Shown piece after piece: positions 37,481 through 63,546 of a stretch of DNA of 64,000 bases. The notes below the pieces were generated by a model. It did no database searches. It was given only the letters and a program-made list of their open reading frames with translations, and had not been told where the DNA came from. The stretch comes from an uncultured Planktomarina sp. GTDB lineage: Bacteria; Pseudomonadota; Alphaproteobacteria; Rhodobacterales; Rhodobacteraceae. The stretch spans positions 558,001 through 622,000 of the forward strand of contig CAJJBJ010000002.1 in NCBI GenBank assembly GCA_905182455.1, read 5' to 3'. The first letter of the stretch is position 1. Every line of letters starts with the position of its first letter. Both the position numbers and the translations under genes were made by a program.

Positions 37481-37564
37481 ATTTTATTTATCGGATTAAT
37501 GAGTTCAAATAATTTCCCATAATGCAGAGAGGCGCAGTATCCTCCCATTAACTTGGAGGATTTT

Positions 37565-39652
37565 ATGCAGGATAAATCTATTCGCCTCGGCGTGGACATT
37601 GGTGGCACATTTACAGACGTGGTTTTGGAACATGGCAAAGAGCTGTTTTCTACCAAGGTCTTGACCACCTACACGGCCCCAGAGAATGCCATCATCGACG
37701 GGATGCACCGCGTCTGTCAGCAATCTGGCATTGATCCAGCCCGGATCAGTCAGATCATCCACGGCACCACTCTGGCTACCAATGCCTTGATTGAACGGCG
37801 CGGCGCGAAAACGGCTCTTATCACTACGGAAGGGTTCCGCGATGTGATCGAGATGCGCACCGAGAGCCGGTTTGAGCAATATGATCTCAATCTGACCCTA
37901 CCGCCCCCCCTGCTGCCCCGCAACTTCCGCTATACCATCGATGAACGGATGCAGGCCGACGGCCAAGTGCTCAAACCTTTGCATCGCGCTGACATTGAAA
38001 CCTTGATTGATGAGATCAATGCGGCAGGTTTTGAAAGCGTGGCGGTTGGATTGCTCCACTCCTATGTGAATGACGCCCATGAGCGGCTGGTGGCCGAGGT
38101 CTTGGCCGAGCGGATGCCTCAGGCCATGGTCTCACTGTCATCGCAAGTCAGCCCCCAGATGCGCGAATATGAGCGGTTTAATACCACAATCGCCAATGCC
38201 TATATCAAACCCTTGATGAAATCCTACCTTGGCCGCCTCAAGGGGCAATTGGCCGATGAAGGTGCAGATTGTCCGATTTTTTTGATGCATTCCGGCGGCG
38301 GAATTATAAGCCTTGAGAATGCAGCAGAATTTCCCGTCAGATTGGTTGAATCAGGTCCCGCGGGCGGCGCGGTCTTTGCGGCCCATATCGCCGCGCGTCA
38401 TGGTTTGGATAAGGTGCTGTCCTTCGACATGGGCGGCACGACCGCGAAAATTTGTTTAATCAAAAACCAGGCTCCGAAAACCGCAAGGGTTTTTGAAGTC
38501 GCCCGAACCTACCGATTTAAGAAAGGTTCCGGCATGCCCATCTCAATACCGGTTATTGATATGGTTGAGATTGGCGCAGGCGGTGGCTCCTTGGCACATG
38601 TGGACAGCATGCGCCAAATCAGAGTCGGACCCGAAAGCGCAGGCTCAGAGCCCGGCCCGGCCTGCTATGGCCGAGGTGGCGCCCGCCCAGCTGTCACAGA
38701 TGCAGATTTGGTATTGGGCCGTTTAGATCCCGCCAATTTTGCAGGTGGCACCATTCCCTTGGACGCAGCGGCCAGCCGTCTGGCCCTGCAAACGCAATTG
38801 GGTGATCCGCTGGACATGGACGCCGAAACCTCAGCTTTCGGACTGGCGGAAGTGGTGGACGAAAACATGGCCAATGCCGCCCGCGTGCATGCAGTGGAGA
38901 ATGGTGAAGATCTCAGCGAATATACCATGATCGCCTTTGGCGGCGCAGCCCCTTTACATGCGGGTCGGCTCTGCGAAAAACTGGGGATCGCACGCATGTT
39001 GGTCCCGGCCGGTGCCGGTGTTGGATCGGCCATCGGATTTTTGCGCGCGCCCTTCAGCTTTGAGGCCAACCGCAGCCAATTCATGCGCCTCTCAGACTTT
39101 GATGCCCCAGCGATCACGATGCTGTTGAATGAGCTCAAAGTTGAGGCCACAGCCTTTGTGCGCAGCTGCGACGCACAGGCTGAAATTCAAGCACAGTATA
39201 AAGTTTATATGCGCTATTCCGGCCAAGGCTGGGAAATACCGGTGCAATTGACCGCAACGCAAGCCAAAACCCCTGATCTTGCCACCTTCCAAGCGCTGTT
39301 CGAACAAGAATACGCAGCGCTGTTTGGCCGGGTTGTAGAGGCCATGGATGTGGAGATCACCGTTTGGTCAGTTAACGCCACAACGCCTACACAATCGGTC
39401 ACGCCTGTGGATGCCGTGGCCAGCCTGCCCCTTATGACGACCAAGACACAACGGGCTCTGTTTGATCCCGCCACCGCTGCCGTTGCGCAAGCGTCGGAGG
39501 TTTTGCGGTCAGACATGACACCCGGCGCATGTATTGCCGGGCCAGCTGTGATCACCGAAGATGAAACCACAATCATTGTGCCTACTTCTCGCAGGGCCAT
39601 AGCCCTCGCCGATGGCTGCATCGATATTTCTGACAAAGGAGCGGACCTATGA
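37565..39652 (+). CDS. hyuA: Hydantoinase/oxoprolinase subunit A
   Basis: The 695-residue protein has the HyuA pattern: an ATP-binding actin-like N-terminus LGVDIGGTFTDVVLEHG, an IIHGTTLATNALIERRGAKTAL segment, SGPAGGAVFAAHIAA, SFDMGGTTAKICLI and an EIGAGGGSLAHVD segment. Such subunits work with HyuB in ATP-dependent opening of cyclic amides (5-oxoproline, N-methylhydantoin) or in acetone/acetophenone-type carboxylation; which one cannot be told from sequence. The start at 37565 follows GGAGG. The stop overlaps hyuB as ATGA. Confidence 0.9.
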   Translation: MQDKSIRLGVDIGGTFTDVVLEHGKELFSTKVLTTYTAPENAIIDGMHRVCQQSGIDPARISQIIHGTTLATNALIERRGAKTALITTEGFRDVIEMRTESRFEQYDLNLTLPPPLLPRNFRYTIDERMQADGQVLKPLHRADIETLIDEINAAGFESVAVGLLHSYVNDAHERLVAEVLAERMPQAMVSLSSQVSPQMREYERFNTTIANAYIKPLMKSYLGRLKGQLADEGADCPIFLMHSGGGIISLENAAEFPVRLVESGPAGGAVFAAHIAARHGLDKVLSFDMGGTTAKICLIKNQAPKTARVFEVARTYRFKKGSGMPISIPVIDMVEIGAGGGSLAHVDSMRQIRVGPESAGSEPGPACYGRGGARPAVTDADLVLGRLDPANFAGGTIPLDAAASRLALQTQLGDPLDMDAETSAFGLAEVVDENMANAARVHAVENGEDLSEYTMIAFGGAAPLHAGRLCEKLGIARMLVPAGAGVGSAIGFLRAPFSFEANRSQFMRLSDFDAPAITMLLNELKVEATAFVRSCDAQAEIQAQYKVYMRYSGQGWEIPVQLTATQAKTPDLATFQALFEQEYAALFGRVVEAMDVEITVWSVNATTPTQSVTPVDAVASLPLMTTKTQRALFDPATAAVAQASEVLRSDMTPGACIAGPAVITEDETTIIVPTSRRAIALADGCIDISDKGADL

Positions 39653-41373
39653 GCGCGCAACCTCCGGCCAACTACCCCTCAATAGTACAATATCAGGTGA
39701 TGTGGAACCGATTGATCTCTGTGGTTGAAGAGCAGGCCCAAGCCTTGGTACGCACAGCATTTTCGACCTCTGTGCGCGAGGCCGGAGATTTGTCTGCTGG
39801 GGTCTACGATCAAGATGGCAATATGCTCGCGCAAGCGGTCACCGGAACGCCGGGTCATGTGAATGCCATGGCCGATGCCGTCGCCCATTTCATCCGCAGG
39901 ATTGGCCGCGAAAACTTTGCCGAGGGGGATATCTATATCACAAATGATCCTTGGGAAGGCACCGGACATTTACATGATATAACCATCGTAACCCCAAGTT
40001 TTTACGATGAAGTCTTTGTTGGATTTTTCGGATGCACCGCCCATATTGTCGACATTGGAGGTCGTGGCTTTGGCGCGGATGCCAACAGCGTTTACGAAGA
40101 AGGTCTGTATATCCCAATTATGAAATTTGCCGATCGCGGCGTTGTGGACAAAACCTTGGTGCGAATTATACGTGGCAATGTGCGCGAACCAGATCAACTG
40201 GTTGGCGATGTTTACGCTCTGGCAACCTGCAATGAAATTGGGCATCGCCGTTTGATCGAGATGATGCAGGAATTTGGCCTTGCAGATCTAACGGGCATTG
40301 CAGATTTTATCCTCAGCAATTCACGCAGCGCTACTTTAGAGCGCATCAATGCGCTGACCCCCGGTACCGCCCATGGAGAGATGCGCAGCGATGGCTATTC
40401 GCATCCGGTAGATCTCAAAGTACGCCTAAGCATCGAAAAAAATCGCATGGTTTGCGATTTTGAAGGCACCTCGGGGCTGGACAAAAAAGGCATTAACTGT
40501 CCCTTGGTCTATACAAAAGCCTATGCATGCTACGCGCTCAAATGTGCCGTGGCACCAGACATTCCCAACAATGCCGCCAGCCTCGCACCTTTTGAGGTCA
40601 TGGCGCCAGAAAACACCATCGTGAATGCCTTGCATCCTGCCCCCGTGGCGTTGCGTCACGTCATTGGTCATATGGTGCCCGACGCGGTTTATGCGGCTTT
40701 AGATCAATTGCTGCCAAATATGGTTCCCGCCGAAGGCGCAGGCTGTCTGTGTAATTTCCAAGTATCCTTGCGGCCACGCACCGGTGCGCCAGCGCCTTTA
40801 CATGCGCGGCGCGCAGAGGTTTTGACATTTAACTCCGGCGGTTCTGGCGCTCGACCAACCCTAGATGGTATGAACGCCACAGCCTTCCCCAGCGGCGTAA
40901 TGACCATGCCCGTTGAAGCCACCGAGCAAGTGGGTCCGGTGATCATTTGGCGCAAAGAGTTGCGGCCCGACAGCGGCGGCGCAGGGCGCCATCGCGGCGG
41001 GTTGGGCCAATATATGGAAGTGGGCGCACAGGAAGGTCATGAGTTTGACATTCAAGCGATGTTTGACCGGGTCAATCACCCCGCGAACGGGCGTCAAGGC
41101 GGTGACATTGGCGGAGCCACCACCATCGGACTGGACGACGGCACAGTTATGCGCGGCAAGGGCAAGCAATTTGTGCCCCATGGCCGCCGTGTCATGATGG
41201 CGTTTCCCGGCGGGGCGGGCTATGGTCCTGTGGCCGAACGATCAAGGGCGGAGATCCTTCGAGACCTTGCAGGCGGCTACATTTCGCCGCAAGCTGCGGC
41301 CCAAGCATACGGGCTGGACTCAGACACAATCGATGACACCCTAAAGCGCGCTCGTAATGGAGAGGTATTCTAA
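39649..41373 (+). CDS. hyuB: Hydantoinase/oxoprolinase subunit B
   Basis: A 574-residue HyuB protein: QYQVMWNRLISVVEEQAQAL at the N-terminus, then the SAGVYDQDGNMLAQAVTGTPGHVN and DIYITNDPWEGTGHLHD segments and the late SGGAGRHRGGLGQ motif. It forms the complex with HyuA that hydrolyses a cyclic amide with ATP. The ATGA overlap with hyuA and a one-base gap to the next gene show tight co-expression in a 1:1 ratio. Confidence 0.92.
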   Translation: MSAQPPANYPSIVQYQVMWNRLISVVEEQAQALVRTAFSTSVREAGDLSAGVYDQDGNMLAQAVTGTPGHVNAMADAVAHFIRRIGRENFAEGDIYITNDPWEGTGHLHDITIVTPSFYDEVFVGFFGCTAHIVDIGGRGFGADANSVYEEGLYIPIMKFADRGVVDKTLVRIIRGNVREPDQLVGDVYALATCNEIGHRRLIEMMQEFGLADLTGIADFILSNSRSATLERINALTPGTAHGEMRSDGYSHPVDLKVRLSIEKNRMVCDFEGTSGLDKKGINCPLVYTKAYACYALKCAVAPDIPNNAASLAPFEVMAPENTIVNALHPAPVALRHVIGHMVPDAVYAALDQLLPNMVPAEGAGCLCNFQVSLRPRTGAPAPLHARRAEVLTFNSGGSGARPTLDGMNATAFPSGVMTMPVEATEQVGPVIIWRKELRPDSGGAGRHRGGLGQYMEVGAQEGHEFDIQAMFDRVNHPANGRQGGDIGGATTIGLDDGTVMRGKGKQFVPHGRRVMMAFPGGAGYGPVAERSRAEILRDLAGGYISPQAAAQAYGLDSDTIDDTLKRARNGEVF

Positions 41374-41374
41374 G

Positions 41375-42583
41375 ATGGCTTTGGCACCTAGCGCCCCTAA
41401 ATCAAACCATTATGATGTCATCATTGTCGGTGGCGCGATGTACGGCAGCTCAGTCGCTTGGTGGTTGTCGCGCAATTCAGACTTTAACGGCTCAATCTTG
41501 GTGGTTGAGCGCGACATGAGCTTTGAGTTTACTTCAACCAGTCACACAAATTCCTGCATACGCCAACAATTCTCCAACCCCACCAACATCCAAATTAGCC
41601 AATTCGGAGCGGAGTTTATCAACAACTTCCAAAGCTTTTTTGACAATGATCCAAGGGTACCAGAAATCCATATCCAAGCGTTTGGTTATATGTATATTGC
41701 GGACACACCAGAGTTTGCGGCGACCCTGAAAGACAGCCAAGCCATACAGGCCAAGCTGGGTGCTGGCACGCAGCATATGACGGCCGCTCAGATCAAAGCC
41801 GACTATCCATTTTATATGGTCGATGACATTGTGGCGGCCAATCACAACCGGATCAATGAGGGCTATTTTGACGGTGCGACCATCTTTGATTGGTGCAAAC
41901 GTGTGGCGCGTGAAAAAGGCACAGAGTACATTGAAAATGAGGTGATATCCATTGAAGTAAAAGGGAAACGTGTCACCAGAGTGACCCTTAAGTCCGGTAA
42001 AAATATGTCCTGTGGAACTCTGGTCAATTGTGCAGGGCCCCGCGCCGTTGAAACCGCCCGCATGGCCGGGCTGTATCTGCCGGTTGAGCCACGCAAGCGT
42101 TATACTTTCATCTTTGACGCACAAAGCCCGTTGGAGTGTGACCTGCCCTTAACCATCGATCCCTCCGGCGTGCATATGCGCTCGGAAGGCAGCTATTATC
42201 TGGCTGGCTGCCCTCCAGATGACGATCCGGCGGTGGATTATGATGACTTCACTCAAGATCACACAATCTGGCAAGAGAAGGTCTGGCCGATCATTGCAAC
42301 CCGCATACCGCAGTTTGACGCCATCAAGCTGGTCAACAGTTGGGCGGGCCATTATGCCTATAATACCTTTGACCAAAACGCCGTCATTGGACCCCACCAT
42401 GAGGTTGAAAACTTCATCTTTTCTAATGGATTTTCAGGGCATGGTTTCCAGCAATCCATGGCCATGGGCCGCGGCTTGTCAGAGATCATCACCTATGGCA
42501 CCTATCGCAGTATTGACCTCACCCCCTTCGCGTACAAACGCATTGCCGAAGGCAAACCCTTTACCGAAAAGGCCGTAATATAA
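41375..42583 (+). CDS. FAD-dependent amino acid/amine oxidase (DAO, sarcosine oxidase-like)
   Basis: A 402-residue flavoprotein of the DAO superfamily with the N-terminal dinucleotide motif VIIVGGAMYGSSVAWWLS (about residues 19-36), a late NSWAGHYAYNTFDQNAVIG segment and the C-terminal GFSGHGFQQSMAMGRGLSE motif common to sarcosine, glycine and dimethylglycine oxidases or dehydrogenases. It probably oxidises a secondary amine or imino acid released by the hydantoinase encoded upstream; this link is an inference. The start at 41375 comes one base after the hyuB stop, with GGAGAGG upstream. Confidence 0.82.
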   Translation: MALAPSAPKSNHYDVIIVGGAMYGSSVAWWLSRNSDFNGSILVVERDMSFEFTSTSHTNSCIRQQFSNPTNIQISQFGAEFINNFQSFFDNDPRVPEIHIQAFGYMYIADTPEFAATLKDSQAIQAKLGAGTQHMTAAQIKADYPFYMVDDIVAANHNRINEGYFDGATIFDWCKRVAREKGTEYIENEVISIEVKGKRVTRVTLKSGKNMSCGTLVNCAGPRAVETARMAGLYLPVEPRKRYTFIFDAQSPLECDLPLTIDPSGVHMRSEGSYYLAGCPPDDDPAVDYDDFTQDHTIWQEKVWPIIATRIPQFDAIKLVNSWAGHYAYNTFDQNAVIGPHHEVENFIFSNGFSGHGFQQSMAMGRGLSEIITYGTYRSIDLTPFAYKRIAEGKPFTEKAVI

Positions 42584-43419
42584 TGAAAAAACTCGTGTTA
42601 ACTGGGGCCGGTGGCCGTTTAGGCTCTTATCTTCGCGAACCCTTGAGCAAAATGTGCGATGAGTTGGTCTCAACCGATTGGGTGGAGGATATCGACACGC
42701 TTTATCCTGGTGAGAGTTATGTCAAAGCGGATCTTGGGTCGTTAGAGCAAATGGAGGCCGTGCTTGAGGATGCGGATATGGTGGTGCATTTTGGTGCTAT
42801 TGGTGACGAGGCCGCTTGGGACGCGATCCTACATTCCAACATCATCGGCGCTTACAATGTTTGGGAGGCCGCCGCGCGCAAGGGTCTGCGCCGGGTTGTT
42901 TATGCAAGCTCAATCCATGCGGTGGGCATGTATCCCAAGACCCAACGCATCGACACCGAAGTGCCGCATCGCCCCGATACCTATTACGGCTTGGCCAAAT
43001 GTTTTGCAGAAGATTTGGGCAGTCTCTATTGGGATAAAAAGGGCATGGAAAGCGTGCATCTGCGGATCTTATCCGCCGCTCAGGTCAACAATCCGCGATC
43101 TCTGGGCACGTGGTTGTCTTACGATGACCTCATTCATCTGGTGGAGCGAGCGATAACCACGCCGATCACCGGGTTTTCCATTGTTTACGGCGTCTCCAAC
43201 AATGACCGAGCAACGGTAGATAATCACAAAGCCAGCTTTTTGGGCTACCGGCCGAAAGACAATGCCGAGCAATTTTCCAAAGCCGTTTTCGCCGAAGCCA
43301 CTCCTGCCGATCCAACAGATCCTGGTCAAATGTGCCAAGGCGGGCCGTTTGCCTCGGTTGAGATCGGATTTTCTGGCACAGCCAGCATGAACATTGTGCA
43401 GGACAAAAAAGAAATCTAA
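42583..43419 (+). CDS. NAD-dependent epimerase/dehydratase, uronate dehydrogenase-like
   Basis: The 278-residue short-chain dehydrogenase has the extended-type Rossmann motif LTGAGGRLGSYLREPL (residues 5-20) and the catalytic YxxxK as YYGLAK near residue 135, with serine in YASSIHAVG. The pattern resembles uronate dehydrogenases, which oxidise galacturonate or glucuronate to aldarolactones. In this operon the substrate may instead be a lactone or ring compound related to the oxidase product. TAATG overlap with the preceding gene. Confidence 0.8.
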   Translation: MKKLVLTGAGGRLGSYLREPLSKMCDELVSTDWVEDIDTLYPGESYVKADLGSLEQMEAVLEDADMVVHFGAIGDEAAWDAILHSNIIGAYNVWEAAARKGLRRVVYASSIHAVGMYPKTQRIDTEVPHRPDTYYGLAKCFAEDLGSLYWDKKGMESVHLRILSAAQVNNPRSLGTWLSYDDLIHLVERAITTPITGFSIVYGVSNNDRATVDNHKASFLGYRPKDNAEQFSKAVFAEATPADPTDPGQMCQGGPFASVEIGFSGTASMNIVQDKKEI

Positions 43420-45551: not shown

Positions 45552-46409
45552 TTATATTCCATGAGATCCGCTATAAGAGTTGAGCGGTGCTTCCACAAAA
45601 CCCTCAAGGGTTTTTGGCTTGTATATTTCAATGACCAAAGGATAGCAGGACGCGGTATCGCTGGAATGTTCATCGCCGCAATCTCCGCCCGGACAAGCTG
45701 AGAGGCCCAATGTAATATCCGTTTGCGCCTCTAGCTCAATGAAGTCTCCGGGACGTACCGGGCTGGCCTTCATGAAATACTGATGCGTGTCTTGGGTGAA
45801 CCCTGTCAACATGAAGACATTCATAACATCATGCACATGCGTCTCAGCCTCGGCCAAACTCAGGCCAAAGTGATCCGCCATAGCCCGCGTGAGGTTTGAG
45901 TGGCAGCAATGGTGATAATCCGCTCCACTCAGCAAGCGCCCCGTATAAGGATCGCATCGGGTGCCGATGACATCATGCACCGAGCCGCCATCTGCGTCAT
46001 AGCCATACCAATCCAAAGTATCCTGGGTGATATGCGCCAAAGGCCGCATATAGGGCAGGTTTGACCATAGGCTGTCTCCGGTACTCACATGGGTACCATG
46101 CAAAGCACGGGTTTTACCGCTGTAGAAGCGTTCTGCAATATTGTGGGTGTTCCAAATATTCAGATCCCCAACCTGTGGCCCCTCCACGGATAAAATTCGT
46201 GCAAAATGACCGGCAGACAGATCAACGCAGGCGGCTTGACGCGCGGGTACCTTAACCGATTGCACCAACTCAGCCCCTGCCTGGCGCGCTTGCGCTTCTG
46301 CAAGATTCACTTCGGGCAATGTATCAATCGGGTAGCATACCAACACGTCGGTCGTGCGACGCGCTGCGGCATCTTCAGGCTCTGGATGGTTGGGGCGGTC
46401 AAGTTTCAT
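45552..46409 (-). CDS. DUF1989 (urea carboxylase-associated) family protein
   Basis: The 285-residue protein has the DUF1989 pattern: a VPARQAACVDLSAGHFARIL segment, GDLNIWNTHNIAERFY, then HCCHSNLTRAMA and DVMNVFMLTGFTQDTHQYF, and a C-terminal CPGGDC cysteine cluster. Such proteins occur with urea carboxylase and guanidine or amine degradation genes; cysteines and histidines suggest a metal site. Biochemical function is not settled. It is divergent from the diaminopropionate lyase-like gene and shares the promoter interval 46410-46528 with it, so the two are probably co-regulated. Confidence 0.85.
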   Translation of the reverse strand: MKLDRPNHPEPEDAAARRTTDVLVCYPIDTLPEVNLAEAQARQAGAELVQSVKVPARQAACVDLSAGHFARILSVEGPQVGDLNIWNTHNIAERFYSGKTRALHGTHVSTGDSLWSNLPYMRPLAHITQDTLDWYGYDADGGSVHDVIGTRCDPYTGRLLSGADYHHCCHSNLTRAMADHFGLSLAEAETHVHDVMNVFMLTGFTQDTHQYFMKASPVRPGDFIELEAQTDITLGLSACPGGDCGDEHSSDTASCYPLVIEIYKPKTLEGFVEAPLNSYSGSHGI

Positions 46410-46528
46410 CGGGCAATCCTTTAGGGCGGTCGCACAACTTTAGGCGCCTCACGTCGACTGTCAATTCTACACTGTCACTAGTCGTTTCTGTACTTGCCCT
46501 TTATAGGTCTTTCGGGTCAGCTGGAACC

Positions 46529-47579
46529 ATGGAAATTTTACAAAACCCGCACCGCAACACTGGCCTGAACGTAGAGATTTTACGTGACATGCCCGCTCCA
46601 TCAACCAATGCCTCTCAGGTGCAAGCCTTGCTGGCACGCTGCCCCAGTGCTGCCGTCACCCCGCTGGTGCAGGCCGCAGAAATGGCAGCTGATTTGGATG
46701 TTGGACAGATCAGCATCAAGGACGAGCGTGCCCGTATGGGACTTGGCAGCTTCAAGGCCCTCGGAGCCTCTTATGTGATCGCCTATTCCGCCCTGATTGA
46801 TGGGCAAGATCAGAGCCAAAAGACCTATGTGACCGCCAGCGCTGGAAACCATGGCTTAAGTGTGGCCGCTGGGGCCAAAGCATTTGGCGCTGCCTCAGTT
46901 GTGTTCATTAGTAAAACCGTGCCGGAAGCCTTTGCCAAAAGATTGGCCGCCCAAGGGGCGCAGGTGATGCGGGCTGGAAAGACTTACGAACAAAGCATGG
47001 CAGCCGCACAGGATGCGGCGCGCGACAATGGCTGGTCGCTGCTGTCTGATAGCTCTTGGCCCGGCTACTTTGAACCGAGCCACCGTTTGATGGAGGGTTA
47101 TACTGCCTTGATGGCAGAGACTGATGAGCAAATGCAGACTCCAAGTCATATTTTCCTGCAGGCCGGTGTGGGTGGCCTCGCAGGCGCAGCTGCTGCCATG
47201 GCCCGCAAGCTCTGGGGTCAAACACCTGTTATTGTCGTTGTGGAACCAAGCCACGCCCCCGCCCTACATGGCTGCATCATAGCCGGGGACTTTCATAGCC
47301 GCCACAGGCCCTGACAGCGCTATGGGCCGTCTCGATTGCAAAGAGGCCTCCTTAATCGCGCTAAAAGGACTAGCCCATGACGCCGATGTCTTTGCCCTTA
47401 TCAGCGAGGCGGAAGGCCAAGCTGGCGCGGATTATGCAGCCGCCTATAGGATGGAAAGCACAGCCTCCGGCGCCGCTGGGTTGGCTGGTCTATTGGCCTC
47501 ACAAGCGCATCGCGTGGCGCTCAAACTCGACAGCAATTCGCATGTGATGCTGATCATGTCAGAAGGACCAGAAGAATGA
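46529..47579 (+). pseudogene. PLP-dependent diaminopropionate ammonia-lyase-like protein, frameshifted
   Basis: The first frame (from ATG 46529) has the fold-type II PLP pattern: ERARMGLGSFKALGASYV with the lysine that binds PLP, VTASAGNHGLSVAAGAKAFGA, and HIFLQAGVGGLAGAAAA. It stops at 47312-47314, and the protein resumes in another frame with AATGPDSAMGRLDCKEASLI to the stop at 47579. Removing one G from the run GGGG at 47285-47288 restores one protein of about 349 residues. Related enzymes turn 2,3-diaminopropionate, serine or threonine into 2-oxoacid and ammonia. The stop overlaps the M24 gene start as ATGA, which shows that the second part was under selection as a gene end. Confidence 0.82.
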
Positions 47580-48721
47580 CCAAAGGGTTTCCCGCTCAGG
47601 AATTCAAAACGCGCGTCGCTAAGGCGCAAGCCTATATGGCTCAACAGGGGTTGGATGCGATTTTGCTCACCACAGAGCCCGATGTACGCTATTTCACAGG
47701 CTACCTGACCCGGTTTTGGGAAAGCCCCTGTCGTCCATGGTTTTTAGTGATCCCTTCCACAGGCGATCCAATCGCTGTTATTCCTTCAATTGGCGCTGTC
47801 TTGATGGCGCGGACGTGGATCACAGACATCCGCACATGGCGCGCGCCAGATTTGGACGATGACGGCGTGAGCCTCCTGGCCGATACCCTGCGCAACATCG
47901 GCCCACGCATTGTCACTCCGAGCGGACTGCAATCATATTTACGCATGCCACTGACTGACTTCACACGCTTGAATGCAGCCCTGCCACAACCGATTGGTGC
48001 AGATGGCGGAATCGTCCAAGCCCTTCGCTTGGTGAAATCCGACGCGGAGATTAAAAAGATCCGCACCGCGTGCCAGATCGCCAACCGTGCCTTTGCTCGG
48101 GTGCCTGAAATCGCACAGGCGGGTGTGCCTCTGGAACGGGTCTACCGAGACTTTCAACGCCTGTGCTTGGACGAAGGCGCAGATTGGGTGCCATATCTCG
48201 CAGGTGCGGCGGCACCGGGTGGCTACGGCGATGTGATTTCGCCCGCCGATGACCGTCCCCTTGCGGCAGGTGATGTTTTGATGCTGGACACAGGCTTGGT
48301 GCATGATGGCTATTTCTGTGACTTTGATCGCAACTTCGCAGTGGGAGATGTGAGCGCCGAAGTGGACGCGGCCCATGGCGCTTTAATCGAGGCCACCCAT
48401 GCCGCTTTTTTTGCCGCACGACCGGGTGCTAGTGCAGCAGATCTGTTTCACGTGATGGATAAGATCGTGACCGGTGGGGCTGGCGGGTCCGACGCTGGAC
48501 GTTATGGCCATGGCTTAGGCATGAACCTGACCGAATGGCCCAGCCTGATTCCAACAGACGCTACGGCCTTGACCTCTGGCATGGTGCTGACCTTAGAACC
48601 TGGCATTGAAATTGCCCCAGGTATGGCGCTGGTCCATGAAGAAAATATCGTGATACGCGACACCGGCGCGGAGTGGCTCAGCCAACCCTACGGCCATGTC
48701 ATGACGAGGTTAAGCACATGA
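47576..48721 (+). CDS. M24 family metallopeptidase (Xaa-Pro aminopeptidase/dipeptidase-like)
   Basis: A 381-residue M24 protein: a creatinase N-terminal domain (residues about 10-140) and a pita-bread catalytic domain. The metal ligands are visible in LMLDTGLVHDGYFCDFDRNF (two Asp), YGHGLGM (His), TLEPGIE (Glu) and HEENIV (Glu). M24 enzymes hydrolyse Xaa-Pro peptides, creatine or ectoine. In an operon with a PLP lyase and a racemase-like enzyme a catabolic amidohydrolase role is likely. An ectoine hydrolase (DoeA/EutD) role was considered but the N-terminal pattern does not support it clearly. Confidence 0.85.
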   Translation: MTKGFPAQEFKTRVAKAQAYMAQQGLDAILLTTEPDVRYFTGYLTRFWESPCRPWFLVIPSTGDPIAVIPSIGAVLMARTWITDIRTWRAPDLDDDGVSLLADTLRNIGPRIVTPSGLQSYLRMPLTDFTRLNAALPQPIGADGGIVQALRLVKSDAEIKKIRTACQIANRAFARVPEIAQAGVPLERVYRDFQRLCLDEGADWVPYLAGAAAPGGYGDVISPADDRPLAAGDVLMLDTGLVHDGYFCDFDRNFAVGDVSAEVDAAHGALIEATHAAFFAARPGASAADLFHVMDKIVTGGAGGSDAGRYGHGLGMNLTEWPSLIPTDATALTSGMVLTLEPGIEIAPGMALVHEENIVIRDTGAEWLSQPYGHVMTRLST

Positions 48722-49458
48722 GCTTATTCTCATATACATCTGTAAGTATTGAACCAACCCGTATCGGTGTTATCGTTTTGCAATCTGACGAGACCATTGA
48801 GCGAGACCTTATGGCCATGCGCGGTGATGCGGATGTATTCGTGAGCCGTGTGCCCAGCGGGCAAGAAGTCACGGCAGAAACCTTACAATCCATGGCGGCA
48901 CATATCGCAGCCTCCGCCAGCCTCTTTCCCCAAACCATTGGCTTTGACGCTGTGGGATATGGCTGCACCTCAGGCACCGCTCAAATCGGGGTCAGCGAAA
49001 TTGAACGGCTGGTAAAATCGGGCACGCAGACAAAAACCGTCAGCCAGCCCGTCTCGGCGCTGGTGGCCGCGTGTCAGCATTTGGGCCTCAAACGCATCGC
49101 CTTTCTGTCCCCCTATATCGAGAGTGTCAGCGCAAATCTGCGGCAGGTTTTACAAGATAATGGCGTTGAGACTCCGGCCTTCGGAACCTTTGGCGAGGCG
49201 GAGGAATCCAAAGTGGTGCGCATTTCGGGCGCATCAGTGATGGAAGCCGCTACAGAATTGGTCCGCGGCGCTCAGGTTGACGGCATCTTTCTTAGTTGCA
49301 CCAACCTGCGCACTTTGGATTTGATCACACAATTGGAAGCGGCGCTCAACATGCCAGTGTTGTCCAGCAATCTGGTGCTGGCGTGGCATTTGGCGCAGCT
49401 GTCCGGCAACCCCGAGGCCTTAAGCGGCCCCGGGCGTCTGTTTGCACCTTTAGCCTAG
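48718..49458 (+). CDS. Asp/Glu racemase superfamily protein (maleate isomerase/EutA-like)
   Basis: The 246-residue protein has the two-cysteine pattern of the Asp/Glu racemase and maleate cis-trans isomerase superfamily: GYGCTSGTAQIG near residues 80-91 and IFLSCTNLRTLD near residues 198-209. The start ATG at 48718 overlaps the M24 stop as ATGA. Relatives isomerise maleate, decarboxylate arylmalonates or take part in ectoine degradation. The exact reaction is unknown. Its stop codon shares the palindrome CTAG with putA on the opposite strand. Confidence 0.82.
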   Translation: MSLFSYTSVSIEPTRIGVIVLQSDETIERDLMAMRGDADVFVSRVPSGQEVTAETLQSMAAHIAASASLFPQTIGFDAVGYGCTSGTAQIGVSEIERLVKSGTQTKTVSQPVSALVAACQHLGLKRIAFLSPYIESVSANLRQVLQDNGVETPAFGTFGEAEESKVVRISGASVMEAATELVRGAQVDGIFLSCTNLRTLDLITQLEAALNMPVLSSNLVLAWHLAQLSGNPEALSGPGRLFAPLA

Positions 49459-52400
49459 CTGGCCATTAGCGCGGCATCGCCCCCTGCGGCGGTGGTATTG
49501 ATACAGATGGATTGCTCACGCAGCAACCATGTCTCAAAGCCCTCATCCATAAGCAAAGGCACAATCGGCCCCTCACGCAGGCTGAGGGTTTGACGGATGC
49601 TCTTTGCGTCAGCGCCTGCATAGATCACCGCGTCCAAATCTGCTATCTTACTCAAATACTCATGCCCCAAGGATGCTGCCACGGCACGGCACCCCAACGC
49701 ACGGGCGCGTCGGGCGTTCTGTTCAGCGCCTCGCCCTATGCACAAGACACGTGCCCTTGGCGTCAAAACATAACGGTTCGACTCTCCGGTTGGTCCCGGC
49801 AAGTCTTCCACCTCATACGTCACCTGCGCTGGCTTGACTTCCAAGGCCGCAGTCACCTGCTCTAGTGACAGCACCGGCGGCATATCTCCATGGTCGCTCA
49901 ACGGGTGTTGCGCCGCAAAGCGTGGCAGATAGCGTGGCCCACCAGCCTTGGGACCCGTTCCACTTAATCCATGTCCGCCAAAGGGTTGTGATCCGACTAC
50001 CGCACCAATTTGATTGCGGTTGATATAGAGATTACCCACATCAATCCGGCTCACTATCCGTTGCACCCGGTCGTCAATCCTACTGTGAAAACCGAACGTA
50101 AGGCCATAACCACTGGCATTGATGTCATCGATCACACGGTCCAAATCTTTGGCCGCAAAAGTGGCCAAATGCAGCACAGGTCCGAAGATTTCTTCGCTCA
50201 AGGCCCCTATGCCTTGCACTGCAACAACCGTTGGCGCCACGAATGTACCTGTGTCAGGCGCTCGGGTTTGAAATAGGATCTCACTCTGCGCGATATAGTG
50301 CAAGATTTTGACCTGCGCTGCGCTGTCAATGACCGGACCAACATCACAGTCTGCATTCGCAGGGTTCCCGACAACCAAAGTCTGCATCGCGCCAAACAAC
50401 ATCTGTTGGAATTCCGCCGCGATATCCTGTTGCACATAAAGTACCCGCAAGGCTGAGCACCGCTGACCAGCCGATTGAAATGCGCTGATCAGCACATCCC
50501 CAACAGCCTGTTCCAACAGCGCGGTGCTGTCGACAATCATTGCGTTCAAACCGCCTGTTTCTGCAATCAAAGGCGCCTGAGGTGCGAGAGTATCTGCCAT
50601 TGTGCGGTTGATCCGCTGTGCGGTGGCGGTGGAGCCTGTAAAACACACACCCGACAAGGCGGGGGCGCTGCATAGGACAGGCCCCACAACTGCGCCTTCT
50701 CCGGGAACCAAATGCAAGCATGCCTCAGGCACGCCAGCCTGGTGCAACAGATCCACGGCAACATGGGCAATCATACTGGTGGATTCAGCTGGCTTGGCTA
50801 ACACCCCATTGCCCGCCGCCAAAGCCGCCGCAATTTGTCCCGTGAAAATGGCCAAAGGGAAATTCCAAGGGCTGATACAGGTGAAAATACCGTCACCGGA
50901 AAATTGCTGCCGATCAGCTTCAGCCGCATAATACCTTAGAAAATCGACAGCCTCACGCAGCTCACCAATGCAATCGGACAAGGTTTTGCCAGCTTCATGG
51001 GTCAACAATGCGAACAGTTCTCCCGCATGGGCCTCATACAGATCTGCCGCTTGGCGCAGCACATGAGCGCGTGTGCTTGGGTCTGCGTCCCAAGGAGTCG
51101 CTGCCTCGACAGTCCGCGCCGCTTGTTGCGGTGATAAATACCGGACCTGTCCTATTCGCGTGCCGGTTGCTGGATTTATGACCGCTTGGATTTCACCCAC
51201 ATCCCCAAAATCCCAATCTTGTGGAGTGGCGCGTGCCGCTTGTAATTCTGCCAGCACCAAAGGATTCGATAAATCGAAACCCATAGAGTTGGGACGCATT
51301 GGCGCAAAAATATCCTGTGGATCGGCAATCTGTGGTCCTGCCTCACCCAATTTTTCAAACGGATCAGCCGCGACCAATGCTGAGGGCACATCGGCGTCAA
51401 AAATTTGATTTACAAAGGATGAATTGGCACCGTTTTCCAGCAATCTGCGCACCAAATAGGCCAGCAAGTCGCTGTGATGACCCACCGGCGCATAAATCCG
51501 ACACTTAACCCCCTGCCGTTTGACCACTTGATCATGCAGGGCCTCTCCCATGCCATGCAACCGCTGAAACTCAAAGTCAGAGGTGCCTTGCTCAGCGGCA
51601 CCATGCAAAACGGCCGCGATGGTATGGGCGTTATGGGTGGCAAACTGCGGGTAAATCCGATCGGACATGGCCAGCAACTTGGCCGCGCAACAGATGTAAT
51701 TGATATCTGTATGAGATTTGGCTGCAAGAACTGGGAAGCCAGGAAGGCTTTCTACTTGCGCCAATTTAATCTCCGTGTCCCAATAAGCACCTTTGACCAA
51801 TCGCACCATAATGCGGCGATCCAACCGTTCGGCCAAGTGATAAAGCCAATCGATCACATGGGCGGCCCGCTTGCCATAAGCCTGCACCACGACACCAAAA
51901 CCGTCCCAACCCGCGAGGCTCGGCTCCGACAAAACAGCTTCAATCACATCCAAAGACAGATCCAACCGCGCCGCTTCCTCTGCATCTATATTCAGTCCAA
52001 TGCCCGCCGATTTAGCCAGAAGGGCCAATGAGCGGGCGCGTGGCACAAGATCCCGCATTACATGATCTCTGTGCAGCAAATCATAAGTCGGATGCAGCGC
52101 CGAAAGTTTAATCGAAATGCCGGGGTTTGTGCGGATATCATCGCCCGAAGCCGCCCTAGAGATTTGGGCAATCGCATCTGCATAAGCCATGTGATAGCTA
52201 CGGGCATCCGCATCATTCACCGCCGCCTCGCCCAGCATATCATAGCTATAGCTATAGGACTGCGCTTCAAGTATCCCGGCGCGCTTGATGGCCTTTTGAA
52301 TGGTTTGGCCCAGCACAAATTGCTGACCCATCTCTCGCATTACCCGCGCCACGGCTTGGCGGATCACCGGCTCACCCAAACGTTTGATCGCACCGCGCAA

Positions 52401-52814
52401 GACGCCAGCTACACCTTTGCCGGGCTCATCCAACACCTGCCCAGTTACAAATAATGCCCATGTAGTGGCATTCACCAAGGTAGAATGGCTGTCACCCAAA
52501 TGTTTACCCCATTCCGAGGGCGCAATCTTGTCTTCAATCAAAGCATCCATCGTGGCGGCATCCGGCACGCGTAGCAAGGCCTCAGCCAGACACATCAGAG
52601 CTACGCCTTCATCAGAAGACAGCCCGTATTCGCCCAAAAACAATTCCATCATAGACGGTTTGGCAGAATGGCGCAGCTGTTCGACCATGGCGCAGGCATG
52701 TTTGGCAATGTCTTCGCGGGCTTCAGCACCAGGAGCAAAGGCCGCTAAAGCCGCAAGTACATCTGTGTCAGAAATAAATGTCTTCGAACGCATGTCCGCG
52801 CGAATTGTATCCAT
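49455..52814 (-). CDS. putA: Bifunctional proline dehydrogenase / P5C dehydrogenase (PutA, no RHH domain)
   Basis: A protein of about 1119 residues. An N-terminal arm (1-140) is followed by the FAD proline dehydrogenase barrel (to about 460, with ISIKLSALHPTYD and MVRLVKGAYWD), then an aldehyde dehydrogenase domain (about 530-960) with the active cysteine in FQSAGQRCSALR and glutamate in LIAETGGLNAMI, and a C-terminal domain. There is no ribbon-helix-helix DNA-binding domain, so unlike E. coli PutA it should not repress its own gene. It converts proline to glutamate at the inner membrane, passing electrons to quinone. The ATG at 52814 overlaps the stop of the ornithine cyclodeaminase gene (TGATG). 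Confidence 0.95.
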   Translation of the reverse strand: MDTIRADMRSKTFISDTDVLAALAAFAPGAEAREDIAKHACAMVEQLRHSAKPSMMELFLGEYGLSSDEGVALMCLAEALLRVPDAATMDALIEDKIAPSEWGKHLGDSHSTLVNATTWALFVTGQVLDEPGKGVAGVLRGAIKRLGEPVIRQAVARVMREMGQQFVLGQTIQKAIKRAGILEAQSYSYSYDMLGEAAVNDADARSYHMAYADAIAQISRAASGDDIRTNPGISIKLSALHPTYDLLHRDHVMRDLVPRARSLALLAKSAGIGLNIDAEEAARLDLSLDVIEAVLSEPSLAGWDGFGVVVQAYGKRAAHVIDWLYHLAERLDRRIMVRLVKGAYWDTEIKLAQVESLPGFPVLAAKSHTDINYICCAAKLLAMSDRIYPQFATHNAHTIAAVLHGAAEQGTSDFEFQRLHGMGEALHDQVVKRQGVKCRIYAPVGHHSDLLAYLVRRLLENGANSSFVNQIFDADVPSALVAADPFEKLGEAGPQIADPQDIFAPMRPNSMGFDLSNPLVLAELQAARATPQDWDFGDVGEIQAVINPATGTRIGQVRYLSPQQAARTVEAATPWDADPSTRAHVLRQAADLYEAHAGELFALLTHEAGKTLSDCIGELREAVDFLRYYAAEADRQQFSGDGIFTCISPWNFPLAIFTGQIAAALAAGNGVLAKPAESTSMIAHVAVDLLHQAGVPEACLHLVPGEGAVVGPVLCSAPALSGVCFTGSTATAQRINRTMADTLAPQAPLIAETGGLNAMIVDSTALLEQAVGDVLISAFQSAGQRCSALRVLYVQQDIAAEFQQMLFGAMQTLVVGNPANADCDVGPVIDSAAQVKILHYIAQSEILFQTRAPDTGTFVAPTVVAVQGIGALSEEIFGPVLHLATFAAKDLDRVIDDINASGYGLTFGFHSRIDDRVQRIVSRIDVGNLYINRNQIGAVVGSQPFGGHGLSGTGPKAGGPRYLPRFAAQHPLSDHGDMPPVLSLEQVTAALEVKPAQVTYEVEDLPGPTGESNRYVLTPRARVLCIGRGAEQNARRARALGCRAVAASLGHEYLSKIADLDAVIYAGADAKSIRQTLSLREGPIVPLLMDEGFETWLLREQSICINTTAAGGDAALMAS

Positions 52815-53872
52815 CAAAGCACTCCTTTGGCGCGATTGACCATGCCAAACAAGTCGCGCGGGTCATCTGGATCAGCGAGCAAGTCCAAATCGATATAATG
52901 GCCGGTGCGTTCTAATTGATCGCGCACATAGCGCAAAGCAGAGAAATCTTCCGTCGCAAAGCCTACACTGTCAAACAAGGTGATTTGCCGATCCGAACTT
53001 CGACCTGGCAGCTGCCCCGTGATCACTTGCCACAATTCTGTGACGGGATGATCTGGGTCCAAAGCCTGAATTTCGCCCTCAATCCGTGTTTGCGGTGGGT
53101 ATTCCACAAAAATATCAGAGCGTAGCAAAATATCACGGTGCAGCTCTGTCTTGCCTGGGCAATCACCGCCAATCGCATTTATATGCACCCCTGATCCGAC
53201 CATATTATCGGTTAAAACAGTCGCGTTTTGCTTGTCTGCGGTGCAGGTAGTGATAATATCCGCCCCGGTGACAGCTGCCTCCGCGGTTGTGCAAATCGTG
53301 ACATCAAGTCCGGAGTTTTCCAAGTTTTTTACAGCCTTATGCGTGGCTCGGGCATCGACATCATACAGCCGCACGGCAGTGATTCCTACAATTTCTTGAA
53401 AAGCCAGTGCTTGAAATTCGCATTGTGCGCCATTGCCGATCAACGCCATTGTACTCGCGCGCTTGGGAGCCAGATATTTGGCCGCCATTGCGCTAGTCGC
53501 GGCGGTGCGCAGGGCGGTCAGCACGGTCATTTCTGAAAACAACACCGGATATCCGTTGGACACTTGAGCCAACACGCCAAAAGCGGTCACCGTTTGAAAG
53601 CCACGGGCCATATTCGCCGGATGGCCGTTTACATATTTAAAGCCATAATACTCACCGTCAGACGTGGGCATCAATTCGATCACCCCCTCTTCAGAATGCG
53701 CGCCAATTCTTGGAGTTTTGTCAAACAATGGCCAACGGGTGAAATCTGCCTCAATATAAGCACAAATTTCGCGCATCATTTGACCAGGACCAATCGAATT
53801 GACAATCCGCATCATGTCTTGCACCGAAACGAATGGCACCATGGCCAAAGCTGAAGGGTTGAGATTGGGCAT
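52814..53872 (-). CDS. ocd: Ornithine cyclodeaminase
   Basis: The 352-residue protein is of the ornithine cyclodeaminase/mu-crystallin family: SEMTVLTALRTAATSAMAAK, the NAD-binding segment LIGNGAQCEFQALAF, and the IGGDCPGKTELHRDIL segment with the aspartate typical of true cyclodeaminases. It turns ornithine directly into proline and ammonia. The pattern and its position between arginase and putA make this assignment strong; alanine dehydrogenase-type relatives are less likely. It starts one base after the arginase stop and overlaps the putA start. Confidence 0.93.
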   Translation of the reverse strand: MPNLNPSALAMVPFVSVQDMMRIVNSIGPGQMMREICAYIEADFTRWPLFDKTPRIGAHSEEGVIELMPTSDGEYYGFKYVNGHPANMARGFQTVTAFGVLAQVSNGYPVLFSEMTVLTALRTAATSAMAAKYLAPKRASTMALIGNGAQCEFQALAFQEIVGITAVRLYDVDARATHKAVKNLENSGLDVTICTTAEAAVTGADIITTCTADKQNATVLTDNMVGSGVHINAIGGDCPGKTELHRDILLRSDIFVEYPPQTRIEGEIQALDPDHPVTELWQVITGQLPGRSSDRQITLFDSVGFATEDFSALRYVRDQLERTGHYIDLDLLADPDDPRDLFGMVNRAKGVL

Positions 53873-53873
53873 G

Positions 53874-54803
53874 TCATAGTCCTCTCGTGCGGCGATCCAA
53901 TACCTTCCGACCCAAAAGCGAGGCCGTTAGATCACACATTAGCGTTGCGGTTTTGCCTCGAATGTCGAGGAACGGGTTCAATTCAGTAAGATCAAGTGAG
54001 CTGGCCAAGCCGCTGTCATGGATCAGTTCCATGATCAGGTGTGCTTCGCGAAAAGTAGCACCGCCTGGGACGGTAGTGCCCACGGCAGGGGCAATTTCTG
54101 GGTCCAGAAAATCCACATCAAAGCTGACATGCAAAAGCCCATTTGCCGCCGTAACCCGCTGCAAAAATGCCTCCATTGGTTTAGCCACGCCCAATTCGTC
54201 AATCCGGCGCATGTCATAAACGTCTATGCCCAAGTCGCGGATAAACTGGTGCTCGGCCTCATCCACCGACCGCAGACCCATCATACAAATATTGGCAGGA
54301 TCCAACGGGGCCAGTACGGGAGGGAAAATGCCCTCAAAGCTGGGCATACCAAGCGCATAAGCCATAGGAGTCCCATGCAAATGCCCGCTCACTGTGCTGG
54401 TCAATGTGTTCATATCGGGGTGAGCATCGAGCCACAGTACAAATTGTGGCCGCCCAACAGCTGCGGCCGCTTGGGCCACGCCAGTCAATGTACCTGCCGC
54501 CATCGAATGATCGCCACCAATGAAGATCGGGAAAGTATCTTGGGCTGCAAGTTCAGCAGCGCGGCTTTGAATGTCACGTGTCCATGCCACAATTTCCGAG
54601 AGTTTTTTGAGATGCGTGGGGCCAGAGACCTCAGGGATATCTGTCGGAAAGGGTAAATCCCCCAAATCTGACAGGCCAAACCCCTGGCTCGTGACAACAT
54701 CACCCAAGCCCGCAGTGCGAAAAGCATCTGGGCCCATCAGACAGCCACCCCGGCCGGTGCCAGCCTGCAATGGCAGGCCTAAGATTGTACAATGACGGGT
54801 CAT
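53874..54803 (-). CDS. Arginase
   Basis: A 309-residue ureohydrolase with manganese ligands in GGDHS (96-100), DAHPD (126-130) and DVDFLDP (229-235). The order and spacing match arginase, which splits arginine into ornithine and urea; agmatinase or formiminoglutamase are less likely because ornithine cyclodeaminase follows. The start at 54803 (MTRHCTILG) has GGAG seven bases upstream, better than the ATG at 54821. The gene opens the three-gene unit arginase-ocd-putA and is divergent from an Lrp/AsnC gene. Confidence 0.92.
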   Translation of the reverse strand: MTRHCTILGLPLQAGTGRGGCLMGPDAFRTAGLGDVVTSQGFGLSDLGDLPFPTDIPEVSGPTHLKKLSEIVAWTRDIQSRAAELAAQDTFPIFIGGDHSMAAGTLTGVAQAAAAVGRPQFVLWLDAHPDMNTLTSTVSGHLHGTPMAYALGMPSFEGIFPPVLAPLDPANICMMGLRSVDEAEHQFIRDLGIDVYDMRRIDELGVAKPMEAFLQRVTAANGLLHVSFDVDFLDPEIAPAVGTTVPGGATFREAHLIMELIHDSGLASSLDLTELNPFLDIRGKTATLMCDLTASLLGRKVLDRRTRGL

Positions 54804-54851
54804 AAGTAGCTCCAAAAGCATGTATTTTTCGAGACATTGTCATGATCCATC

Positions 54852-54921: not shown

Positions 54922-55350
54922 ATGACTAGACTAGATGACATCGATCGAAAAATCATTGCGCGCCTTCAAATCGATGGCCGCGCCACGGTCACAACTTTGG
55001 CCGGAGTATTGGAACTTGCACGTGGTACGGTGCAGACCCGCCTGACCAGATTGATCGACAGCCGCACCATCAAACGCTTCACAATCGATTTAAACACTCT
55101 GGAAGCCAATGAGTTGGTGCGCGCTGTGATGATGATCGAAGTGCGGGGCAATACTGCCAACGCCGTACAGAAAGCTCTCAAGCGCATGCCCGAGGTCTCG
55201 GCGTTGCATCGCACCTGTGGGGTATGGGATTTGGTGGTCGAGCTGGAAACCACCAGCCTATATGAGTTTGACAGCGTGTTGTCGCGGATCAGAGAACTCC
55301 CTGGCGTATCAAACTCCGAGACCTGCCCCTTGCTGCGGCGTGTTAGCTGA
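54922..55350 (+). CDS. Lrp/AsnC family transcriptional regulator
   Basis: A 142-residue protein with an N-terminal helix-turn-helix (LDDIDRKIIARLQIDGRATV, then LELARGTVQTRLTRLIDSRTI) and a C-terminal ligand-binding RAM domain (LVRAVMMIEVRGNTA onward, GVWDLVVELETTSL). Such regulators of the ArcR/PutR type activate amino acid catabolic operons on binding the amino acid. It faces the arginase-ocd-putA operon, its probable target, with an inverted repeat between them. Its end overlaps the end of the convergent hydrolase gene by eight bases. Confidence 0.92.
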   Translation: MTRLDDIDRKIIARLQIDGRATVTTLAGVLELARGTVQTRLTRLIDSRTIKRFTIDLNTLEANELVRAVMMIEVRGNTANAVQKALKRMPEVSALHRTCGVWDLVVELETTSLYEFDSVLSRIRELPGVSNSETCPLLRRVS

Positions 55351-56158
55351 ACGGCTGCGCGTTAAGGAATTTCAAAATCGGGGCGGTGAACGCCTCTGGA
55401 TCCTCCATCATGCCCAAATGCTTTAGCTTTGGCACAATCAAACTTTGCGCCCCAGCTATTTCACTCGCAATCTCGTGGCTCATATCCGGCGTAGAACCAG
55501 TGTCATTCTCACAGGTGATAACCAATGCGGGATGGCGGATTGCCGGGCTTGGCCGGATCAACTCGCGCACCCCATGCGCCAAGACCCAAGCAGACTGACC
55601 ATAGCTCACAGGATCCGCCGCAAGCCGCCAATCTGTCACCCGCGCGGGCGCATCAGTTCCAGAGGTCAAAAACTCAGGCGTGAACCATCGATCCAGCGCG
55701 GCTGCCATTGTGGCCATAGCCCCTTTGTCTAAGGCTTTGCGGGCGCGTTCTTCGACGGCGGCCTGCATATCCGTTCCACGGTCATGGGGAGAATTTACAA
55801 TCACCAATGACCGCAGCATATCAGGGTGATCCATTGCAAAGCGCCGGTTGATCATCCCCCCAATCGAAAAGCCCACGAGATGCGCCGGGCCCAAGGCGGT
55901 TTCCTGCAACATTCCAGATATTTGCTCAGAAAACACCTTTAAGCTCAGATCTTCGCGCGCTGCCGCACTGGTCTCATGGCCAAAGAGATCATAGGTGAGC
56001 ACCCTATAACGGGCCGATAAGGCAGGCAGATGCGCCTCCCAGAACTGCGATGACAGCCCCAAACCATGGATCAACACCACTGCTGGCGCGCCCTGCGGCC
56101 CATGCAGCGCATAGGCGGTGCCATCGGAGGCCTTAAACACCGGCAGGGTTGTCCACAT
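55343..56158 (-). CDS. Alpha/beta hydrolase (3-oxoadipate enol-lactonase-like)
   Basis: The 271-residue protein has the alpha/beta hydrolase pattern: oxyanion-hole motif LIHGLGLSSQFW near residue 27, nucleophile elbow GFSIGGMINR with serine near residue 95, an acid in CENDTGSTPD and the catalytic histidine in KLKHLGMMEDPE. Layout is that of enol-lactonases and carboxylesterases. The start at 56158 (MWTTLPVF) overlaps the end of the DUF1185 gene by 26 bases and is the best fit to the family. It is the last gene of a four-gene minus-strand operon of unknown pathway. Confidence 0.82.
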   Translation of the reverse strand: MWTTLPVFKASDGTAYALHGPQGAPAVVLIHGLGLSSQFWEAHLPALSARYRVLTYDLFGHETSAAAREDLSLKVFSEQISGMLQETALGPAHLVGFSIGGMINRRFAMDHPDMLRSLVIVNSPHDRGTDMQAAVEERARKALDKGAMATMAAALDRWFTPEFLTSGTDAPARVTDWRLAADPVSYGQSAWVLAHGVRELIRPSPAIRHPALVITCENDTGSTPDMSHEIASEIAGAQSLIVPKLKHLGMMEDPEAFTAPILKFLNAQPFS

Positions 56159-57775: not shown

Positions 57776-57779
57776 GGGG

Positions 57780-63435: not shown

Positions 63436-63546
63436 TACATTCTCCCACACGTCCCGTTCTTTATGAAAAAAAATTGCGTTACGGGTTAAACAGCAAATTT
63501 TTTTATATTCATCTGCAATCAAAGCAGATGATATGGCTTGCATCAC

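Follow-up and report, generated by a model that had tools for sequence, protein, structure and literature searches.

In a 64,000-nucleotide stretch of an uncultured Planktomarina sp. (contig CAJJBJ010000002.1, positions 558,001 to 622,000; hereafter the window) we found that three adjacent genes, encoding a pyridoxal phosphate (PLP) fold-type-II lyase, an M24 hydrolase and a EutA/arylmalonate-decarboxylase-like protein, form a conserved unit, referred to here as the trio. Judged from its protein families, the trio is related in kind to ectoine degradation and is built of different subfamilies. We read it as a variant Eut-like catabolic module for an imported, nitrogen-rich, ectoine-like solute, an interpretation whose chances of being right and wrong we consider to be evenly balanced. 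The original prediction had described a DUF1989 gene diverging from these three translationally coupled genes beside an arginine operon, and had suggested an amino-acid or amide breakdown route; the four-gene observation was partly confirmed and the interpretation was partly supported. Our searches of an open-licence library turned up no account of the trio cluster, and we call it undescribed only as far as those searches reach; among the papers listed were some on DUF1989, a table containing SPO0365 and, as the one paper bearing on the lyase, a study of uric acid breakdown.

The DUF1989 gene (45552–46409, minus strand) and the lyase gene (plus strand) point apart across a gap of 119 bp, and these coordinates together with the PF09347 match of the DUF1989 protein (157 bits versus a gathering score of 27) bore out the predicted divergence. 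The genes that follow are, in order, the PLP lyase, the M24 'pita-bread' hydrolase (47576–48721, plus) and the EutA-like racemase or isomerase (48718–49458, plus). Reading of both overlaps showed an ATGA at the lyase/M24 joint and another at the M24/racemase joint, as predicted. The coupling of three genes stood for the M24 gene, the racemase gene and the joints; it did not stand for the lyase as a single open frame, which is broken near 47.30 kb. Lyase frame 1 (46529–47314, plus), holding the N-terminal part, closes at a premature TGA at 47314, and the conserved C-terminal part continues in another frame (about 47301–47579, plus); it is this second frame that runs into the first ATGA joint.

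The M24 protein was found at an identity of at least 56% in 91 of 248 sampled genomes of the family. A lyase gene lay directly upstream of it in 76 of these 91 genomes and a racemase gene directly downstream in 81, a count made from all 127 M24 matches, the best 87 lyase matches and 118 racemase matches that were mostly the top-scoring ones (lower-scoring racemase matches, such as those in G033, G004 and G109, were omitted). Since both neighbours occurred in the same order and on the same strand in 67 of the 91 genomes, the arrangement is not a matter of chance. One genome had neither neighbour. Among 80 named loci, of which those of Planktomarina are closest to the window, the lyase was present in 74, the racemase in 77 and both in 71. 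The six loci lacking the lyase belong to Sulfitobacter (two), Ruegeria atlantica (two), Pseudooceanicola and an unclassified alphaproteobacterium; one of the Sulfitobacter loci has little upstream DNA, and among these six L110 covers just 1.25 kb upstream. The racemase was missing from three of the 80.

The families of the trio are those of ectoine breakdown. In the published scheme, as set out in the excerpts of PMC5924519 and PMC13188858, EutD opens the ring, and the steps proposed for the other enzymes are inversion by EutA, elimination or dehydration by EutB and reduction by EutC; the trio holds the EutA, EutB and EutD superfamilies, that is, the first, second and fourth of that scheme. 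The likeness to 5-hydroxyectoine and ectoine catabolism (eutABCDE, doeABCD) thus lies in a EutA-like racemase, a PLP fold-type-II enzyme and an M24 hydrolase, and the difference lies in the absence of EutC and EutE from the trio and in scores far under every eut cut-off. The racemase matched PF17645 (74.2 bits versus 25.9), which, together with its two conserved cysteines, places it in the Asp/Glu racemase and arylmalonate decarboxylase superfamily, stayed below the cut-off of PF01177 (21.5 of 31 bits) and reached 135.1 bits on the EutA model TIGR02990, whose cut-off is 318. The two EutB models gave the lyase piece of the window 51.0 of 413.35 bits (TIGR02991) and 72.6 of 413 bits (PRK07476), and the intact lyase of locus L083 likewise fell below them (51.1 and 60.6 bits, respectively). 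For the M24 protein the EutD/DoeA model TIGR02993 gave 60.2 of 613 bits. In a quick tree of 95 M24 sequences, DoeA, a second M24 family of Ruegeria clusters and the trio together with the related type B cassettes described below formed separate groups on long branches (Shimodaira–Hasegawa-like approximate likelihood ratio support of 84 on the side that unites trio and type B, and of 92 for the trio proteins by themselves). Direct orthology to the ectoine eut genes, the finding that would have made this a known pathway, was therefore rejected, and the claim of a catabolic-looking hydrolase, isomerase and lyase set that matches no pathway we can name gained support.

The residues kept in these proteins were counted over 100 or 109 of 120 loci, those matching above an identity of 45% (lyase), 54% (M24) or 41% (racemase). 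Cys83 and Cys194 of the racemase were kept in 109 of 109 proteins, and the aligned EutA likewise has two conserved cysteines. Five residues of the M24 protein, Asp238, Asp249, His312, Glu341 and Glu355, were kept in 109 of 109 proteins; we assign them as metal ligands by alignment. Several of these positions are altered in the aligned DoeA proteins, unlike in the trio. A full metal site, an M24 fold shared with the Xaa-Pro dipeptidase PepQ, a score of 100.8 bits on the PepQ model and dipeptidases and prolidases as the best sequence matches among solved structures could all point to imino-dipeptide degradation, in which the M24 enzyme would be a prolidase followed by the racemase and a serine/threonine deaminase. 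We regard this as very improbable, as the PepQ cut-off is 630 bits, the prolidase PH motif aligns at Val220-Ile221 with no histidine at 219–224 in the 109 proteins, and the second prolidase histidine is replaced by Thr319 in all 109. In the aligned prolidases histidines stand at these places, and they are further histidines with roles in M24 peptidases. Another M24 protein, encoded behind the importer in locus L160 (L160:17008-18228), carries the stretch GHSFGILSHYYGREA and has relatives of at least 60% identity in 20 of the 80 named loci; this stretch is reminiscent of creatinase.

In the lyase, the active-site residues Lys76 and Asp174, the equivalent of Asp189 of the diaminopropionate ammonia-lyase (DAPAL) YgeX, were kept in 100 of 100 trio proteins, and the position of YgeX Asp120 was Ala in 100 of 100. 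Lys77, Asp120 and Asp189 of YgeX are catalytic positions. The predicted structure of the L083 lyase (predicted local distance difference test score, pLDDT, of 91.0) had the Escherichia coli DAPAL as its closest fold (Z 45.5, 1.8 Å, 335 residues), with threonine deaminase at Z 40.2. This nearness to YgeX, with Lys77 and Asp189 retained, would suit a route for 2,3-diaminopropionate or a ureido acid that resembles the final steps of reductive uric acid degradation. A precedent exists in a 2025 paper, the excerpts of which describe YgeX acting at the end step from a ureido acid and YgeY with YgeX turning albizziin into pyruvate (PMC12507026). The reductive uric acid pathway (YgeW, YgeX, YgeY, HyuA, SsnA) resembles the trio in its terminal PLP lyase, and it resembles the type B cassettes in the M20 partner; the source text seen names neither an M24 enzyme nor a racemase for it, and no search for YgeW or SsnA was made here. 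Type B cassettes occur in Rhodobacteraceae and consist of AsnC, M20, DAPAL, M24 and racemase genes (loci L077, L068, L071 and L079, Photobacterium included); in Photobacterium a type B-like set is accompanied by a tripartite ATP-independent periplasmic (TRAP) transporter.

In the type B cassettes the M20 enzyme is accompanied by a DAPAL that passes the family cut-off, and these cassettes fit the ureido-acid precedent better than the trio does. The type B DAPAL of Aliiroseovarius scored 475.6 bits on the DAPAL model and has the TDGNHG motif of YgeX, in contrast with the trio lyases, which have SAGNHG. On the DAPAL model PRK08206 (cut-off 276) the two window pieces scored 203.7 and 35.1 bits and three intact trio lyases 234.2, 254.9 and 245.5 bits, all below the cut-off, and the identity to YgeX is 27%. 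An M20 gene, moreover, was found in just 14 of the 80 named trio loci. The diaminopropionate or ureido-acid route is accordingly improbable for the trio, and diaminopropionate, which the original prediction had listed among the substrates to assay, is weakened as a candidate because the lyase both misses the DAPAL cut-off and lacks the Asp120 of YgeX.

The evidence for an imported substrate comes from a PotD-type ATP-binding cassette (ABC) importer, encoded in the window by genes for a PotC-like permease (59766–60980, minus), a PotB-like permease (60985–62259, minus) and a substrate-binding protein of the SBP_bac_8 family (62344–63546, minus). In the window the binding-protein gene sits 12.9 kb from the racemase gene, with the arginine block between them. 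Relatives of the binding protein are found close to the trio or to a DoeA-type hydrolase. Their distance to the trio was 10 kb or less in 14 of the 75 genomes with both listed, and for DoeA-type genes this was so in 39 of 108, where about 0.4 and 0.6 genomes, respectively, were expected from uniform gene positions in a 3.9 Mb genome, a calculation that ignores contig ends and phylogeny. Importer matches from 130 of 196 genomes were used, with weaker matches, second copies, seven matches at 58–64% identity (G217, G130, G048, G132, G013, G148 and G242) and G045 left out, and the DoeA positions cover 148 of 156 genomes. The importer-linked DoeA-type hydrolase was mostly under the TIGR02993 cut-off, with exceptions that include G036, G067 and G141, and this linkage may represent a second ectoine-type system.

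DoeA was found in 77 of the 91 trio genomes versus 79 of the 157 others, and 6 of 73 genomes had it no more than 10 kb away from the trio. Among 61 fully flanked named trio loci, the importer binding protein was present in 27, DoeA in 12 and DoeB in 3. In a minority of genomes, then, the trio clusters with DoeA, DoeB, eutB or eutC. DoeA (650.3 of 613 bits) and DoeB (519.5 of 402.7 bits) adjoin the trio in L108, and DoeA/DoeB homologues at 62–63% stand beside it in L138. The trio genes and the importer are accompanied in L061 by eutC, eutB, DoeA (621.2 bits, above the cut-off of 613), an M20 gene and DUF1989, and in L180 by AsnC, an aminotransferase, DoeA-like, ArgE-like and DUF1989 genes, without eutB, eutC or agmatinase. 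The set in L181 comprises the importer, racemase, M24, lyase, DUF1989, a class III aminotransferase, an agmatinase-like gene, eutC, eutB, a DoeA-like gene and an ArgE-like M20 gene. The eutB product of L181 passes one NCBIfam EutB model (429.6 of 413 bits) and falls just short of a second (407.2 of 413.35), the product resembling EutC clears the general cyclodeaminase model (462 of 408) and fails the EutC model (437.7 of 471.65), the DoeA-like protein is under its own cut-off (574.9 of 613) and the M20 protein passes the acetylornithine deacetylase model (360.1 of 297.7).

These neighbourhoods bear on whether the trio could break down ectoine or 5-hydroxyectoine themselves by another route. 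In such a route the M24 enzyme would open the ring instead of EutD or handle the gamma-acetyl isomer, the racemase would carry out the EutA inversion, and the PLP enzyme would dehydrate and deaminate a hydroxylated diamino acid. The three published eut superfamilies in the trio (PMC5924519, in part), the SAGNHG rather than TDGNHG motif of the lyase and the greater frequency of DoeA in trio genomes favour it. So does the report, in the excerpts of PMC5924519, that DoeA yields alpha- and gamma-N-acetyldiaminobutyrate (ADABA) at 2:1 and that gamma-ADABA is seemingly no substrate of DoeB. We nonetheless hold this route to be rather unlikely. The trio is no simple eut replacement because L181 carries eutB, eutC and a DoeA-like gene besides it; in genome G045 the trio and a high-scoring DoeA occupy different loci; and no deacetylase is fixed with the trio.

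Several observations also weigh against the reading that we prefer, a Eut-like module for an ectoine-like solute. Within the flanking DNA covered, the majority of trio loci lack eut and doe genes, doeA and doeB being confined to the 12 and 3 of the 61 fully flanked loci, and eutB and eutC were found in none of these 61. M20 genes are as scarce as stated above, and Ruegeria makes up a large share of the linked loci (11 of 27 for the importer, 8 of 16 for DUF1989 and 6 of 12 for DoeA). The co-occurrence and co-location counts ignore shared ancestry. The window genome, G000, gave no DoeA match at E 1e-100, an absence that is not certain in a genome 95.8% complete, and its relative G045 has the high-scoring DoeA 546 kb from its trio; for these two reasons the trio and the ectoine hydrolase are separable. 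Finally, the fold of the M24 model is about as close to prolidase (5cde, Z 35.5, 2.6 Å, 361 residues) as to EutD (6twk, Z 35.4, 3.1 Å, 367 residues), with creatinase at Z 33.6 (1chm, 3.1 Å, 367 residues); the mean pLDDT of this model was 85.2, and it is poor at 307–320, a segment spanning His312 and Thr319.

The genome context of the four predicted families was conserved for the trio and not for DUF1989 as a constant member. The DUF1989 protein is a close relative of the solved protein 3di4. It reached neither of the UAAP models (TIGR03424, 48.8 of 284.7 bits; TIGR03425, 27 of 205.95 bits) and was far below the cut-off for the trimethylamine N-oxide (TMAO) demethylase, Tdm. It shares the DUF1989 domain with the carboxyguanidine deiminase/UAAP proteins and with Tdm, and its Cys152 and Cys168 have the spacing of Tdm Cys263 and Cys279, two of the three zinc cysteines reported in the excerpts of PMC12560246. 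As the family includes a carboxyguanidine deiminase according to the part of PMC11271267 consulted, the protein is perhaps a deiminase. Relatives at E 1e-60 or better were found in 169 of the 248 genomes, namely 84 of the 91 trio genomes versus 85 of the 157 others, and 7 of 84 genomes had one no more than 10 kb from the trio (tables read by eye). Sixteen of the 61 fully flanked named loci have DUF1989, eight of them from Ruegeria, and the importer was present in 15 of these 16 loci versus 12 of the 45 without DUF1989. Eighteen DUF1989 loci picked at a distance from the trio (L162–L179) showed no trio-cluster gene beside DUF1989, and 16 of them shared a different recurrent neighbour. This neighbour looks like a purine nucleoside phosphorylase, DeoD. 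A fixed membership of DUF1989 was thus rejected on the strength of these trio-less loci and their own recurrent neighbour, and in our view its partnership with the trio is optional.

The predicted link to the arginine operon fared no better. The block of PutA, ornithine cyclodeaminase and arginase (window 49455–54821) lies between trio and importer in L086, L087 and L097 and is absent from L036, L083, L084 and L085; it is a lineage-specific insertion, and since several Planktomarina relatives lack it we rejected it as a functional partner. The cyclodeaminase is an ornithine cyclodeaminase by PRK07589 (564.7 of 350 bits) and stays below the EutC cut-off (111.3 of 471.65 bits). Upstream of DUF1989 the window holds LysR, hydantoinase A and B, flavin adenine dinucleotide (FAD) oxidase and epimerase genes (36593–43419), and the same block stands directly behind the trio in L118 (L118:11920-18760). 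HyuA was about 12 kb or less from the trio only in G000 and G045 among 86 HyuA genomes (by eye) and was present in seven of the 80 named loci, six from Planktomarina or IMCC1909 plus L118; a HyuA-HyuB-FAD oxidase block near the trio in so few genomes was rejected as a general partner. Between the arginine block and the importer, all on the minus strand, are genes for an alpha/beta hydrolase (55343–56239), a relative of which at 30–32% is found near the trio in Ruegeria loci, an AA_synth protein (PF06684, about 56136–56730), a luciferase-like monooxygenase (56741–57886) and an aldehyde dehydrogenase (57780–59231); the hydrolase, monooxygenase and dehydrogenase are candidate partners. A second EutA-like racemase was seen beside a cystathionine beta-lyase homologue in a Planktomarina relative (L073), in one cluster with such a homologue in Aminobacter (L080), and on a short contig of the window's own genome (L074).

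The state of the module in this genome is a separate matter. Planktomarina relatives span the lyase break in one open frame in the alignment, and among the family matches listed only the two G000 pieces have stops within the lyase. A programmed frameshift was rejected because the compared relatives have a single open lyase frame. The AA_synth gene is broken as well, its copies in L083 and L036 being intact. Seven of 74 proteins (hits of at least 45%) were split over frames, four of them lyases, two AA_synth proteins and one a low-identity frame that we take to be spurious; this comparison drew on four relative loci and is partly redundant. With the lyase broken in the assembly, the module here may be dead or mis-assembled, and either break may stem from true decay or from a fault in the assembly. 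The module could be a remnant, decaying in this genome because its genes are no longer needed, which is compatible with the other readings and which we consider possible at best. Both convincing breaks sit in one catabolic neighbourhood, and the genome measures 2.12 Mb versus 3.3 Mb in G045; the M24 and racemase genes are intact, however, and assembly error could explain both breaks in the one assembly at hand.

For a Eut-like module of this kind we infer the reactions, their order, the substrate and the service of the importer to the trio as follows. Uptake of a nitrogen-rich solute derived from an amino acid would be the task of the PotD-type importer. Hydrolysis of a C–N bond, which would either open a ring or remove an acyl group, would fall to the metal-dependent M24 enzyme, and inversion of a stereocentre to the EutA-like enzyme with its two cysteines. 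The PLP lyase would act last and eliminate a beta-substituent, with a 2-oxo acid and ammonia as products. An ectoine-like substrate is the most likely one, be it a cyclic amidine or a diamino or hydroxy-diamino acid that carries an N-acyl group, and in our reading the trio would be another use of eut-type chemistry. More tentatively, about one third of the sampled Rhodobacteraceae might possess a new route for a marine amino acid, distinct from ectoine, of the cyclic amidine or cyclic guanidine type, in which the M24 enzyme would open the ring, the EutA-like enzyme would invert, a lyase of a new DAPAL branch would free ammonia and DUF1989 would be an optional deiminase. If this were so, the eut operon would be just one case of a toolkit of EutA-like, M24 and PLP enzymes that can be put to repeated use, and the type B, Photobacterium and Aminobacter clusters, the last with a cystathionine beta-lyase in the place of DAPAL, would be further instances. 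The automatic names 'diaminopropionate ammonia-lyase' and 'Xaa-Pro peptidase' should be used with caution for trio genes, and a module conserved in 91 of the 248 sampled genomes of the family, with a linked importer in some of them, offers a concrete target.

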